64,000 nucleotides of DNA from Oscillospiraceae bacterium. GTDB lineage: Bacteria > Bacillota > Clostridia > Oscillospirales > Ruminococcaceae. The DNA lies in assembly GCA_031253495.1 (NCBI GenBank), contig JAIRWC010000012.1, positions 1 to 64,000 on the forward strand, given 5' to 3'. Made by a program: the position numbers and the translations under genes. Below are positions 5,318-12,202 of this stretch, one piece after another (position 1 is the first letter of the stretch; every line of letters starts with the position of its first letter). The notes under the pieces are model-generated. The model made no database searches, was not told the DNA's origin, and saw nothing but the letters and a program-made list of their open reading frames with translations.

Positions 5318-5348
5318 AACGAAAACTCTAAAGGGGTTTTCATTTTTG
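5318..5348. terminator. putative bidirectional terminator between tsf and the DUF368 gene
   Basis: GAAAACTC-TAAA-GGGGTTTTC stem-loop followed by ATTTTT. Confidence 0.55.
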
Positions 5349-6182
5349 AAGATTATGTTCCCCGCCGTTCTTTTTACCGAGGAACAAGCCCGCCGCCATA
5401 CCGGCCGCGAAGCACGGAATTCCGGCGAGGGTGGCGGCGTTAAGCCCGGCGCCTTCGGGGAACAGCGGCAGCGCCGAACCCGCCACCATGCCGGTTATCG
5501 CGCCGTATACGACCGATTTGAATTTCTTAAGCAAGAACAAAATCATCTTTGCGCCGACGACTATTCCGAACAGTATGCCCGCCGCCGCCGGGGCGATTAT
5601 CGTGAAATCAAGCGCTTTCAGCCCGTTCATAAACATTTCGTAAACGCCGAAGGCCACCAAAACAAAAGCTCCGGAAATCCCCGGCATCACCATGGCGATT
5701 GCCGCCGTAAAGGCGTAAAACGCTATTCTCAGCGTAAAAGCGAAATCGGCGGTTTGAACCGCCCCCGTTTCAAAAGCGCCGGATTTTTCAACGACGAAAA
5801 GCGCGGCGATTAACGCGAATCCAAGCAAAAACGGCGACAGGCGGACCTTTTTAAGTTTTTCCCCCGACGCCGCGATTTTAAGGATGAGCGGTATTCCGCC
5901 CAAAATGAGACCCATAAAAAACAGGTTCGTCTGAACGGGGAACCCGTCAAACAAAAAAGTTACGGCGTGGGCGAACCCGATTATCCCGCCCACCGTGCCT
6001 ATCCCGAAAAACAAAAGGAAAAAGAAATGTTTCTTTATTTCCTTGAAATTAAGGGCGAACGCTTCGCATACGGTGTCGTAGCAACCGAATATTACCAAAA
6101 ACGTGCCGCCGCTCAACCCGGGGATAACGTGGGCTGTTCCGTAAACCGCGCCGTAAATTAATCCGAGAACGCACCGTATCAA
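5340..6182 (-). CDS. DUF368 membrane protein (undecaprenyl-phosphate translocase family)
   Basis: GTAHVIPGLSGGTFLVIFGCYD ... VMPGISGAFVLVAFGVYE repeated DUF368 motifs; start placed at TTG 6182 (SD AGAGG) overlapping the upstream stop (TTGA). Confidence 0.87.
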   Translation of the reverse strand: MIRCVLGLIYGAVYGTAHVIPGLSGGTFLVIFGCYDTVCEAFALNFKEIKKHFFFLLFFGIGTVGGIIGFAHAVTFLFDGFPVQTNLFFMGLILGGIPLILKIAASGEKLKKVRLSPFLLGFALIAALFVVEKSGAFETGAVQTADFAFTLRIAFYAFTAAIAMVMPGISGAFVLVAFGVYEMFMNGLKALDFTIIAPAAAGILFGIVVGAKMILFLLKKFKSVVYGAITGMVAGSALPLFPEGAGLNAATLAGIPCFAAGMAAGLFLGKKNGGEHNLQK

Positions 6183-8713
6183 TGGCTGAACCTCTTTTTC
6201 ACAAAATCGAACCAAATCTGAGAAACCGTTCCGACGGCAAGGCAAAGCATGAGCGTCAGCGGGTTAAGCCGCGCCAGCCCGAGCGCCGAATTGACAAACG
6301 GCATATAGATAACAAGCAGTAAAAGCAGACACATTAACACGCTCAACGATATGACCGAGTTGTTTCTTCGGTTGAAAAAGCGGTAAAAAGGCTTTTCAAA
6401 CGACAGCCCGACCCAAGCCATGGCGATTATCCCCGAAAAGAAAACGGCCGCGAATACGGAGCGCTGGGTTACGACGGCTTTTTCCGGCATGGCGAAAAAC
6501 ATCGCCAATTCCGCGAAGAGCAGGGAACCGCCTTGGATAATCGCGCCGAAAAGGAAATTTTTGTTGACGGCGCCCCTGCCGATAAAGCCGGAGGGTTTCA
6601 GCCAACTTTTCAAGTCGGCTTTGTTGTCTATGAAAATCAGCATCATAACCGGAACGGCGACGACGGTCAAAAACGACGCGAAAACGGCGTCTAAGACAAA
6701 ACCCCCGCCCGACAGCAGATTGACGAGCGCGAAAGGCGCGATTGTTATAAGCGCGGAAATGGCGGCGGAAACGCCGCGCTTGATGTTACGGTGCATTTGC
6801 CGCGCCTCCCTGAACGTGTCGGCGGCTTTGACAAAGCCGTCCCCCTCCATTATAAAGTCGCAGGCTTCACACGCGGAGCCCGTGGTGGATTGCGAAAGCG
6901 TGTCCATGTCCATGTCCCATTCCCGTTCGGTCGTGTACTTGGATAAGGCTATTCCCACGTCCGCCTGTTCAAGCGCCTCAACGTCTGAGCTTTCGCCGCC
7001 GAACACGGCGACTATCTCGCCGGACGAACGCATAAGGTTCGTTATTTCGCCTTTTTGCCCCGCCGTAATTCCGGAAAAGACGTTCACTTCCGAAACGTCT
7101 GTTTTATCGCCGTCGAATTTAGCCCTTTCAAGTTCTTCGCCCGTGATGACGCCGCCGGATTTAAGCCCGATTTTTTCCGCCGCGGCCAAGGCGGTTTCCT
7201 TGCCGTCGGGCGTCAGCATAACGACGTTGACGCCCGCGCGGTAACAGTTCCTGACCGCCGTCTGAACATTCTCCCTGATATTCCCGGAAAAAGCCGTCAG
7301 CCCCAGATATGTGTATTCAATTTCAAAAAGGCTTTCCGGGACGCGGTCGTTTTCGATTTTCGCGAACGCGACGGCGAAGACCCGATACCCCTCCCTCGCG
7401 TATTCGTGCTGTTTTTTCTGAATGGTGAAGAGCTGTTCGGTGGGCGGCTTGCAAAACGACAGTACGACCTCGGGTTCCCCCTTTACGCATAAAAGGCGCG
7501 AACCGCCTATCCCCCAAAGACAGCCGTTGATTTTGTGATAACGCGCTTCGTCGTCGGAGCCGTAGCTTTTGATTAACTCGTTTTCGTGCATTTCCTTAAC
7601 GTCTATATGTTTGAACGCCGCGCTCAAAAAAATCGCTTTTTCATAAGAATCGGCGGGCGAGGTCCCGCAGGAAAGCGCCGATATTCTCGTCAGCATTTCC
7701 TTGTTCGCGGAACTCTCCCCGACCAGCGGGGTGTTGTCGGCGGCGATAATCGAGTCTTTTCCGACGCAGACCGCCGTTACGGAATTGAGCGTTTCAAGGG
7801 CGCGCAGATGTTTGATTTCGCCGTACTTGCGCGAAAGCCTCAAAGCCCCCGTTATGTAATAAATCCGCACGATTGAAGCCGCTTCGACCGGCAAAACGCA
7901 CAAAGCGAACGATACCGCCGGAAGGAAAGTTTCGGTGAAATAACCTATTATGTCCGTTTCGGGCGGGACGGCGGTTATGAACTTGAACGCCGTGGTGATT
8001 ATCAGAACCACCGCCGCACAGCAGGTGAAAATCGGCATAAGTTTGTTGAACGCCGCCTCGAATTCGGTGTAATAGCCGTCTTTGGCGGAACGGTGCCCGC
8101 GGTTCGCCTTCGAGTCCTGCCCCGTCGCGAATACGCGGGCTATAAGTATGCCGGAAACGATTCTCGTGCCTTTGTACACGCAACTTTGCTTAAGCTCGTT
8201 TTTCCCGTCCGCGCCCGCCGCTTTTTTCACGGGGAGCGGCGAACCCGTAAACGCGCTTTCGTCCGCGGTAACGCCGTATGATTCGAGAATGTGCGCGTCG
8301 GCGGGAACGTTCTCCCCGCCTTGCAGCACTATTAAATCGTCCTGTACGATATGCTCCCTTTTCAACAAGATAACGCCGCCGTCCCTCACCGCCCTTACGG
8401 TGATTTCCGACGAGCGGGTAAGCTCGGCGAGTTTTTCGTCGCATTTTACGCCTTTTAAAATTTCGGCGGCGCAGTGCGTTACCGTAAGCAGGGAAAGCAT
8501 AATCCCGCCCGATAGGTTCCCCCCGATGAAAGTTAACGAAATCGCTCCCAACATAAGAAAAAAACGCATTGACAAAAACACGTTCCTTGCGCGAAAGCCG
8601 GCGCGTTCGTCGTGTTTAACGTCGGAGTTGTGCCCGTAAAACGAAAGGTTTTCTTCCGCGCGCGCCGTGTCAAGCCCGTTATAGTCGCCCTTGAACTTTA
8701 AAATTTGTGCCAT
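6179..8713 (-). CDS. P-type ATPase homologue lacking catalytic motifs (pseudo-P-type ATPase)
   Basis: Collinear with P2-type ATPases (VPADAHILESYGVTADESAFTGSPLPVKK; LRALETLNSV; VKGEPE; ADVGIAL; C-terminal TM bundle) but DKTGT, TGES, TGD and GDGxND are all replaced. Start MAQILKFKGD at 8713 overlaps the upstream stop (TGATG). Confidence 0.88.
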   Translation of the reverse strand: MAQILKFKGDYNGLDTARAEENLSFYGHNSDVKHDERAGFRARNVFLSMRFFLMLGAISLTFIGGNLSGGIMLSLLTVTHCAAEILKGVKCDEKLAELTRSSEITVRAVRDGGVILLKREHIVQDDLIVLQGGENVPADAHILESYGVTADESAFTGSPLPVKKAAGADGKNELKQSCVYKGTRIVSGILIARVFATGQDSKANRGHRSAKDGYYTEFEAAFNKLMPIFTCCAAVVLIITTAFKFITAVPPETDIIGYFTETFLPAVSFALCVLPVEAASIVRIYYITGALRLSRKYGEIKHLRALETLNSVTAVCVGKDSIIAADNTPLVGESSANKEMLTRISALSCGTSPADSYEKAIFLSAAFKHIDVKEMHENELIKSYGSDDEARYHKINGCLWGIGGSRLLCVKGEPEVVLSFCKPPTEQLFTIQKKQHEYAREGYRVFAVAFAKIENDRVPESLFEIEYTYLGLTAFSGNIRENVQTAVRNCYRAGVNVVMLTPDGKETALAAAEKIGLKSGGVITGEELERAKFDGDKTDVSEVNVFSGITAGQKGEITNLMRSSGEIVAVFGGESSDVEALEQADVGIALSKYTTEREWDMDMDTLSQSTTGSACEACDFIMEGDGFVKAADTFREARQMHRNIKRGVSAAISALITIAPFALVNLLSGGGFVLDAVFASFLTVVAVPVMMLIFIDNKADLKSWLKPSGFIGRGAVNKNFLFGAIIQGGSLLFAELAMFFAMPEKAVVTQRSVFAAVFFSGIIAMAWVGLSFEKPFYRFFNRRNNSVISLSVLMCLLLLLVIYMPFVNSALGLARLNPLTLMLCLAVGTVSQIWFDFVKKRFSH

Positions 8714-9870
8714 CAATCCGTCTCCGTATAAAACATGTGATATTTCTTTTCTTTGTGCGCCCAAACGCTTAACACCAATCCCACCGCGCAATACAAGGCC
8801 AAGGTCGAACTCCCCCCCGCGCTGATAAACGGCAGGGGAACCCCGACGACGGGCGTTACCGCGATAACCATCCCCACGTTTATTACCGAGTGAAAAAATA
8901 TCATCGAGAACGCGCCCACGCAAATCAGCTTACCCATCAAATCCTTGGCGGCGCCCGCCGCCGCGATAATTTTCACGCAGATTAACAAAAGCAGCGCGAG
9001 CGTTACGGCGCAGCCGACAAACCCCAGCGTCATCCCTATGTAAGCGAAAATAAAATCGTTATGGATGGCGAAGATGTACACATAATTCCCGCCGGAAAGA
9101 CCCTGACCCGTCAGCCCGCCCGAACCGAGCGCCATTAAGCTGCGCCTTTGCTGGTCGTATAACCCGACAGCCTCTTTTTGCTGGAGTTCTTTGTCGATTA
9201 AAACGAGGATGCGCATTTTATGGTGCGGCTGCGCGTAGAAGTTCCAGAAAACGACGCCCAAAACCGGAAACCCCACCAATCCGGCGAGAATATATTTCCA
9301 CGAAAGCCCCGCCGCGAACATCATGGTCAAGAACATCATAAGTATTATAAGCGCCGTTCCGGTGTCGTCCTGTATAATCACCAGCCCGACGGGAACCATT
9401 CCGTGCAGGCACAGCAGCGCGAAATGCCGCGGGTGGTTCATTTTGTCGCCGGCTTTACAAAGGTGCGTGGCGAAGGTCATAATGAAAGCGACTTTCAGAA
9501 ATTCCGACGGCTGGATTTGTATAAAGCCCAAGTCAAGCCAGTTAAGGTCGGTCGCGCCTTCCGTCCGCACGCCGAGCGGCGTGAACAAAAGCAGCGACGT
9601 CAACAGCGCCAAACCGGAATACACAAACCACAGCCTCGATAAAAGCCTGTAATTTATCGAGGCGATGACAAGGGCGAACGCAATTCCCGCCGCCATCGTG
9701 ATAAGTTGAATTTTCCAGGTTCTCGGCGAAACCTTGCCGGGGTTAATCCCGTTGAGGTTAATCGTGTAAAGGAGGTAAACGCTGAACAGGCTCGCGATTA
9801 CGCAAAGCGCGAGCAGTATTTTGTCCAAACGCTTAAAATAATTTATTAAATCGTTTATAACGCGCTTCAT
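8713..9870 (-). CDS. SEDS family peptidoglycan glycosyltransferase (RodA/FtsW/SpoVE type)
   Basis: LNWLDLGFIQIQPSEFLKVAFIMTFA, GSGGLTGQGLSGGNYVYIFAIHNDFIFAYIG, GVPLPFISAGGSS. Confidence 0.93.
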   Translation of the reverse strand: MKRVINDLINYFKRLDKILLALCVIASLFSVYLLYTINLNGINPGKVSPRTWKIQLITMAAGIAFALVIASINYRLLSRLWFVYSGLALLTSLLLFTPLGVRTEGATDLNWLDLGFIQIQPSEFLKVAFIMTFATHLCKAGDKMNHPRHFALLCLHGMVPVGLVIIQDDTGTALIILMMFLTMMFAAGLSWKYILAGLVGFPVLGVVFWNFYAQPHHKMRILVLIDKELQQKEAVGLYDQQRRSLMALGSGGLTGQGLSGGNYVYIFAIHNDFIFAYIGMTLGFVGCAVTLALLLLICVKIIAAAGAAKDLMGKLICVGAFSMIFFHSVINVGMVIAVTPVVGVPLPFISAGGSSTLALYCAVGLVLSVWAHKEKKYHMFYTETD

Positions 9871-9897
9871 CGATTGACCTCAACGGGAAACCGTTCC

Positions 9898-10440
9898 TCA
9901 ATAATTCTCGGCTTTTATTTCAAAATAAGCCTGAGGATGGAAGCAAACGGGGCATTTGAGCGGCGCCTGCTTTCCCGCGTGTATGTGCCCGCAGTTGAGG
10001 CATTGCCAAACGGCGTCGCCGTCACGCGAGAAAACGATTTTGTTGTTGTGGTTTTCAAGCAGTTTGCGGTAACGTTCCTCGTGTTTTTTCTCAATCTCGG
10101 CGACGGCCCTGAACAGACGCGCGATTTCGCCGAAACCCTCTTCCTCCGCGATTTTCGCGAATCCCGGGTACATATCCGTCCATTCCTCGTTTTCGCCGTC
10201 CGCCGCTTCGGTTAAATTTTCCGCCGTGCCGGGGATTTCCCCGTCGTTTAACAGCTTAAACCAGATTTTCGCGTGTTCCTTTTCGTTTTCGGCGGTTTCA
10301 AGAAAAAACCGCGCGATTTGCTCGTAGCCCTCTTTCTTCGCCTTTGAGGCGAAGTAGGTATACTTGTTCCGCGCCTGGGATTCCCCCGCGAACGCCGCCA
10401 TTAAATTCGCTTCCGTTTTTGAGCCTTTTAATTCTGCCAT
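9898..10440 (-). CDS. rbr: rubrerythrin (ferritin-like plus rubredoxin domain)
   Basis: [44 protein letters not shown]-terminal CxxC pair [22 protein letters not shown]. Confidence 0.96.
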
Positions 10441-10456
10441 TTTTTTGTCCTCCGTT

Positions 10457-11188
10457 TTATAATGTTAATTCCGCGACGGCGAACGACGTTTCGCCGCCGC
10501 GTAAATCCACGGTGATTTTGCCGCCGCTTTCACGGGAGAAAACCGAAACGAGGTCGTTTAACGCGGCGGGGGCGCGGTATTCGAGCCTTATCCTCTTAAC
10601 GCTCAAATCAGCCGGCAGGAATTCCAGCGCCAAATCGACGTACCTCGCGTTGTTGACATGGTTGTAAGCGTCGAGGAGATACCGCGTTATCTTTAATTCC
10701 CCGAGCCGCTTAAAACCGCCGCCCGGGACGGCTATCTTACGCGGAAGGTATTCCATGTCGAACCTTTCCCGCATATCGAAAGCGTTTATAATCTCGGCGG
10801 GAATACGGCGGGGACGCCCCGTTTCCAAATCCACGAACGCGCCCGCGGCGTGGCTGCAGACGCAAATTTCCCCGTCCGCCCCCCGTATATTGGTATTGCG
10901 GAACCCGTAAACCGTCTTGCACTCGTACACGGCGGTCGCAACGGCGAGTTTTTCGCCGTAAAGCGGGAGCCGCCTTATGTCAATCTGCCGCGAGGTGAGA
11001 AATATCCCTATCCCGTTGTCTTTAAAATATTCGCGAAATTCCGTCATTGAATCGAGCTGAAACCCTTCGCAGTCCTGCATCAAATCCACAATCGCCGAAT
11101 AACGCAGCCGATTGTCCGGAGTAACGTGGCTCGCCCCGATTACGCGCTCGGTTGAAAACGCGACGGAACCTATGCCTTTAATAATCAT
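10457..11188 (-). CDS. acyl-ACP thioesterase
   Basis: 243 aa, double hot-dog pattern: [14 protein letters not shown]..., [21 protein letters not shown]. Confidence 0.85.
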
Positions 11189-11206
11189 CAGCTTTTTATA
11201 AAACCG

Positions 11207-12202
11207 TTAATCGCCGGTTTCCCATTTGTACATTTTACGGAGTTCTTCCCCCACTTTTTCAAGTTCGTGTTCGCTTTCCAGTCTTCGGCAGGCGTTGAAG
11301 TGGGCGCGCCCCGTCTTGTTTTCCGCAATCCAGTTCCGGGCGAAGGCGCCGTCGCGTATTTCCGAAAGGATTTTCTTCATTTCTTTTTTTGTATCTTCGG
11401 TAATTATGCGCTTCCCCGTTTCATAATCGCCGAATTCGGCGGTGTCGGATATCGAGCTCCTCATAAATTTGAACCCGCCCTTGTAGATTAAATCAACGAT
11501 TAACTTCATTTCATGGATACACTCGAAATAAGCGTTCTCGGGGGCGTAACCCGCCTCGACGAGGGTTTCAAACCCCGCTTTCATCAACGCGGTAACGCCG
11601 CCGCACAATACCGCCTGCTCCCCGAACAGGTCGGTTTCGGTTTCCTGCCTGAACGTCGTCAGCAACACGCCCGCCCGCGCCCCGCCTATGCCCGCCGCGT
11701 AGGCGAGCGCCGTGTCCAACGCGTTCCCCGACGCGTCTTGATAAACGGCGGCAAGGCAGGGAACGCCTTTTCCCGCTTCGTACTCGTACCGGACCGTGTG
11801 CCCCGGACCCTTCGGCGCGACCATAATCACGTCGATGTCGGAAGGCGGGATAATCTGCCCGAAATGGATATTGAACCCGTGCGCGAAAGCGAGGGTTTTC
11901 CCCGGGGCGAGATTAGGCTCGACGCTCTCCTTATATAAGTCCGCCTGCTTTTCGTCGTTGACCAAAAGCATGATAACGTCCGCCCTCTTCGCCGCGTCGG
12001 CCGTCGCGGCGACCTCAAAGCCGGCTTTTTGAGCCGTTCCCCACGATTTGCTGCCCTCGTACAATCCGACGGTTACTTTGACGCCGCTGTCCTTGAGATT
12101 GAGGGCGTGAGCGTGCCCCTGGCTCCCGTAGCCGATAACCGCCACGGTTTTCCCGCTTAACGCGGAAAGGTTACAGTCTTCCTGATAGTAGATTTTTGCC
12201 AT
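11207..12202 (-). CDS. ilvC: ketol-acid reductoisomerase
   Basis: [62 protein letters not shown]. Confidence 0.97.

Follow-up and report, generated by a model that had tools for sequence, protein, structure and literature searches.

What could a P-type ATPase that has lost its catalytic residues be doing between the genes for a RodA-type glycosyltransferase and a PopT (DUF368) protein? The question is raised by a locus in the window, which here designates the whole 64,000-nucleotide stretch of the Oscillospiraceae contig that was analysed. PopT/DUF368 proteins are undecaprenyl phosphate (Und-P) translocases with an alkaline-conditional phenotype (PMC9876793). Recycling of Und-P sets a limit to wall synthesis and serves as a target for antibiotics, and its translocases were identified only recently. 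The open-access literature that was searched yielded no protein partner of PopT, no link between DUF368 proteins and P-type ATPases and no description of a pseudoenzyme of this kind. Papers concerning LMCA1 and alkaline pH, or the alkalinity of termite guts, contributed nothing of use here.

Structure of the locus

The three genes lie on the minus strand in the order SEDS, P-type ATPase, DUF368/PopT, with the following features:

8713..9870, minus strand: SEDS glycosyltransferase, RodA type, with PF01098 and Asp272 in NDFIF
8711..8715, minus strand: TGATG, overlap of SEDS stop and ATPase start
6179..8713, minus strand: 844-aa pseudo-P-type ATPase, which keeps the membrane, A, P and N domains and has lost its catalytic motifs
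8672..8713, minus strand: N-terminal signature MAQILKFKGDYNGL of the pseudo-ATPase, conserved family-wide and also present in intact ATPases of G712 and G751
7760..7762, minus strand: codon of Gly318, in place of the phosphorylated Asp of DKTGT
6776..6796, minus strand: MHRNIKR, cytoplasmic end of M5; H641, N643 and K645 are invariant in the family alignment
6179..6182, minus strand: TTGA, overlap of ATPase stop and PopT start, identical in L075 and L076
5340..6182, minus strand: PopT/DUF368 Und-P translocase family protein, TTG start, both PGxSG repeats intact
5321..5341, minus strand: stem-loop with T-rich tail directly 3' of PopT, possible terminator

As the first-pass annotation of this DNA had described, the genes interlock through two overlaps. 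The final A of the SEDS stop codon (TGA, 8715-8713) is shared with the ATG of the ATPase (8713-8711), and the ATPase stop codon (TGA, 6181-6179) overlaps the TTG of PopT (6182-6180). Both starts are preceded, 8 nt upstream, by a plausible Shine-Dalgarno sequence: GGAG for the ATPase and AGAGG for PopT. A mechanical list of open reading frames placed the PopT start at 6245; the TTG at 6182, which has a ribosome-binding site and lies in the conserved junction, is the better choice. The relatives L075 and L076 share the TTGA junction, which therefore does not result from a sequencing accident. In a promoter and terminator scan of the whole region, sites were no commoner than in shuffled sequences, and a search of the window with Rfam returned two tRNAs only. 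A rubrerythrin-like gene (9898-10440) is found on the same strand 27 bp upstream of RodA; it is not kept beside the module in relatives.

The SEDS protein matched PF01098 with 235.9 bits (cut-off 26.4). Its score against the NCBIfam rodA_shape model (TIGR02210), 258 bits, falls below the cut-off of 336.7, yet this model still scored best, ahead of the FtsW model at 219.7. Asp272, within the NDFIF motif, corresponds to the catalytic Asp known from RodA proteins. The source genome (1.67 Mb in 45 contigs) contains two SEDS genes; the copy in the window is RodA-like and the other one is presumably FtsW.

Predicted loss of catalysis and retention of the P-type fold

The ATPase was recognised by two Pfam models, PF00122 (84 bits) and PF00689 (30 bits), both above their cut-offs, and its best matches are Ca-type pumps. 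The first-pass annotation had considered it catalytically dead, and its sequence bears this reading out at every catalytic motif. The phosphorylation motif DKTGT has become GKDSI (residues 318-322), TGES has become TGSP (156-159), TGD has become TPD (501-503), GDGVND (consensus GDGxND) is replaced by GGESSD (572-577) and the PEGL-type motif by PVEA (275-278). The four other P-type ATPases of the source genome have intact DKTG and GDGxND motifs.

The same degeneration is seen throughout the family. At the phospho-Asp position, 50 pseudo-ATPases carry Glu in 27 cases, Asp in 17, Gly in four, Asn in one and Ser in one. The Glu of TGES is gone from 49 of the 50, and the first Asp of GDGxND, which binds Mg, from all 48 rows that could be scored. 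None of 47 proteins keeps the M4 Glu that serves as ion ligand, and the M6 Asp ligand is missing from the rows inspected. The nucleotide pocket of the N domain retains the K515-type Lys (KGxPE) in 44 of 47 proteins, the F487-type Phe in 12 and the R560-type Arg in four. Members with an Asp at the phosphorylation site still lack the other active-site residues; the joint loss of the TGES Glu, the GDGxND Asp and the M4 Glu, in Asp-keeping members included, rules out a residual pump. By its residues, then, the upstream ATPase is predicted to be a pseudoenzyme in which phosphorylation and ion pumping have been lost and the P-type fold kept. An AF2 model of the window protein has a complete P-type fold (pLDDT 81.5, pTM 0.74). 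With this model as query, the best Foldseek match was 6zhh, the Listeria Ca-ATPase LMCA1 (E 3.7e-41), and query-normalised TM scores among the matches listed reached 0.76.

Distribution, origin and constraint of the pseudo-ATPase family

The pseudo-ATPase occurs in the genus of the window, in a few related genera and at 40 named loci from metagenome-assembled genomes, mostly assigned to Oscillospiraceae or Ruminiclostridium. From record and isolate names, and partly by our own reading of them, the bacteria would come from the guts of termites, deer, goats, rabbits and other hosts. The search that gave the 40 loci was seeded in part on the N-terminal motif, and these loci were not used to argue for conservation of the motif; the genome searches were run free of such seeding. 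One of the loci, L087, comes from a record titled Bacteroides sp. but groups firmly with the Oscillospiraceae sequences, and is probably mislabelled or from a mixed bin. An extremely divergent dead ATPase was found in G928 (L214:1671-5349), which is the most divergent of the genomes, with a divergent PopT-like gene about 2 bp downstream.

In a tree with 41 active pumps, 47 full-length pseudo-ATPases formed one clade (SH-aLRT 100). Their open frames measure about 810-925 aa across dozens of genomes, and close pairs give dN/dS values of about 0.03-0.16. Together, these data show a single origin for a clade that evolves fast and is strongly constrained nonetheless. The constraint has moved off the membrane core and onto the actuator domain and the N-terminal tail. 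Relative to the whole protein, regional identity within the family is 1.36 in the actuator domain and 1.14 in the N-terminal tail, and is lowest, at about 0.74, in the membrane segments; in active pumps, by the same measure, the actuator domain shows average conservation and the N-terminal tail ranks among the least conserved parts. Family invariants include K8, Y11, G13, E134, D200, E219, R283, H641, N643 and K645. This pattern fits a protein that would work through its cytoplasmic parts, not through transport.

PopT is the near-constant neighbour of the pseudo-ATPase

Within the genus, 70 of 71 genomes carry the pseudo-ATPase, and in 61 of those 70 PopT lies directly downstream on the same strand, at a median distance of 34 bp between match ends. 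In eight of the nine remaining genomes the locus is cut by contig ends, so that of the 62 genomes that can be assessed 61 have PopT next to the pseudo-ATPase. The one true exception is G902 (G902/G502), the genome of locus L079, where the pseudo-ATPase (7992-10637) overlaps RodA and PopT was not detectable anywhere in the genome. G100, which belongs to another genus, has both the pseudo-ATPase and PopT, located apart from each other. Flanking genes differ between sublineages and the ATPase-PopT pair is retained. The first-pass annotation had postulated the coupling of a dead ATPase to an Und-P translocase, an idea to be given up if the arrangement proved to be confined to this genome; the survey established it instead as conserved and recurrent across the neighbourhoods of relatives.

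Control searches gave no comparable linkage. At 30 PopT loci of related genera devoid of the pseudo-ATPase, no P-type ATPase or SEDS gene was present within about 1.5 kb of PopT, and none of 54 other P-type ATPase loci had PopT nearby. Linked PopTs formed one clade (support 100/98); the pair is thus most simply explained as having arisen once and stayed together. Among 120 genomes sampled in the family, PopT was present in all four with the pseudo-ATPase and in 52 of the 116 lacking it, which indicates that PopT has no general need of the pseudo-ATPase. Hence the pseudo-ATPase hardly ever occurs in the absence of PopT, and the reverse is common. A mirror-tree comparison of ATPase and PopT distances gave a weak correlation beyond species history (partial r 0.25, Mantel p 0.04), which is confounded by that history and by a noisy RodA control set and was not counted as support.

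The position of RodA is different. It adjoins the pair only in a termite-gut sublineage (the window, L075, L076, L078, L079, L081 and L082), lies 4.6 kb away in L077 and is found elsewhere in the other genomes with the pseudo-ATPase. Because RodA is next to the pair in this sublineage alone, the core module consists of the pseudo-ATPase and PopT and does not include RodA. A three-gene set as the ancestral unit is ruled out on the same ground, and the SEDS-ATPase-PopT module originally proposed for this locus has to be reduced to its last two genes outside the termite-gut sublineage.

Additional genes were noticed at some loci. A YkuE-like metallophosphatase gene is inserted between pseudo-ATPase and PopT at four of them (L085, L087, L088 at 10468-11295, and L114), and a phosphotransferase-like gene lies 3' of PopT at nine; both names come from reading the sequences and not from a family search. 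In one sublineage (L096, L099, L103, L108 and L111) the pair adjoins sporulation genes resembling sigG and spoIIGA.

PopT and other Und-P translocases

The PopT of the window matched PF04018 with 119.8 bits (cut-off 26). Against the NCBIfam PopT equivalog NF052563 it scored 114.2 bits for a cut-off of 400, which places it in the same family and outside the defined ortholog group. It shares PF04018 and the PGxSG repeats with VCA0040 of V. cholerae and SAOUHSC_00846 of S. aureus (PMC9876793); unlike these, the window-type proteins form a separate clade and are nearly always encoded beside a dead ATPase. A sequence search of the PDB gave no convincing match to PopT. The gene is the only PF04018 member of the source genome, and a single copy was counted in each of 17 genomes checked. 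No DedA (UptA-type) protein scored above the cut-off in 71 genomes, with the control positive in 13 of 14 reference genomes. By these searches, PopT would be the only recognisable Und-P translocase in these genomes, and the bacteria seem to depend on it. About half of the linked PopTs, for instance L036:11697-12857, contain an insertion of about 80-110 residues between the two repeat halves, and measure 361-405 aa as against some 280 aa.

A candidate partner of PopT

On balance we favour the view that the pseudo-ATPase, without pumping, regulates PopT or acts as its scaffold, a reading drawn from the conservation and neighbourhood data. The two proteins would constitute a co-inherited membrane unit in which PopT returns undecaprenyl phosphate across the membrane and the former P-type ATPase, no longer phosphorylated or pumping ions, serves as its partner. 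The pseudo-ATPase would bind PopT and alter its activity, acting mainly through the cytoplasmic actuator domain and the N-terminal FKGDYxGL tail. In the termite lineage, the gain of RodA may have coupled production of the lipid-carrier recycling function to that of wall synthesis. Genomic evidence is what suggests the functional link between ATPase and PopT; from it we infer binding and regulation. A more specific version, in which this P-type ATPase family became dedicated, nucleotide-independent subunits of PopT, gating it by means of the actuator domain and the N-terminal tail, is put forward tentatively, at somewhat less than even chances. If true, the P-type fold would have been put to a use not described before, and the lipid-carrier cycle would have a new control point. 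The present lineage, with PopT as its sole recognisable translocase and with the PopT gene nearly always behind that of a dead P-type ATPase, offers a testable candidate for a PopT partner, and the pseudo-ATPase would exemplify a pump family turned regulator.

Other explanations were weighed against a regulator or scaffold of PopT. The pseudo-ATPase might work first and foremost with the RodA elongation machinery, with PopT as an operon companion: the termite-gut sublineage has RodA immediately upstream, the RodA stop codon overlaps the ATPase start in the window and in L079, and survival of this junction in L079, which has retained RodA and ATPase and no PopT, makes a role linked to RodA conceivable in that lineage. 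The location of RodA elsewhere in other lineages, set against the near-constant adjacency of PopT in the genus, makes this unlikely as the primary function. A passive channel, scramblase or lipid-binding carrier supplying PopT with an ion or a lipid would be in keeping with the retained membrane domain and overall fold, and with the finding that recycling through DUF368 proteins depends on pH conditions and, in V. cholerae, on Na+ (PMC9876793). We regard such a role as quite improbable: the M4 Glu and M6 Asp ligands are gone, and conservation is lowest in the membrane helices, which lends no support to a conserved lipid site in them, although the first-pass annotation had considered that the protein may still bind lipid.

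Short gaps and overlaps point to likely co-expression rather than to common function, and the two genes could be functionally unrelated and held together by co-transcription only. Persistence of the pair at about 30% protein identity in spite of shuffled contexts, together with the fact that outside the clade neither gene has such a neighbour, makes this improbable. Finally, the lost catalytic motifs might be taken as the mark of a pseudogene or of an assembly artefact. Such a view can be practically dismissed given long frames in dozens of genomes, low dN/dS, conserved new residues and a confidently predicted fold; decay as a pseudogene is ruled out, as the family as a whole is under purifying selection and has long open frames.

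Intact relatives and comparable systems

The highest-scoring intact relatives of the pseudo-ATPase that were found are P-type ATPases with a like N-terminal signature, FKGDYxGL in G712 and G751 and FEGDYTGL in G608. Two such genes, encoding FKGDYSGL (FRGDYSGL), are located at L157:8332-10914 and L158:7167-9722 and have no PopT nearby. Unlike the pseudo-ATPase, the enzymes of the G712/G751 type have all catalytic motifs intact and lack a neighbouring PopT gene. These FKGDYxGL ATPases of other Clostridia probably represent the ancestral type from which the pseudo-ATPase derives. Ca2+-type P-ATPases (LMCA1 of Listeria, 6zhh; SPCA1; MgtA) have the same fold and domain order and significant sequence similarity; compared with these pumps, the pseudo-ATPase has lost the phospho-Asp, the TGES Glu, the GDGxND Asp, the M4 Glu and the M6 Asp, and has acquired new invariant residues in the N-terminal tail and the actuator domain.

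In KdpFABC, too, a P-type ATPase (KdpB) is encoded with a transporter of unrelated fold (KdpA; PMC8385062). KdpB is active and drives transport, whereas the dead ATPase described here could only gate or scaffold. The likeness is one of analogy: the partner here belongs to PF04018 and is not homologous to KdpA, and with a dead ATPase the pair does not amount to a composite pump of the KdpFABC kind.

Five genomes of the genus (G332, G922, G915, G913 and G910; loci L163:3653-7123, L208, L209, L210 and L211) have a second, distant PopT immediately 3' of an intact LMCA1-type Ca-ATPase gene. This second, apparently separate pairing of a P-type ATPase with PopT may stem from one event.
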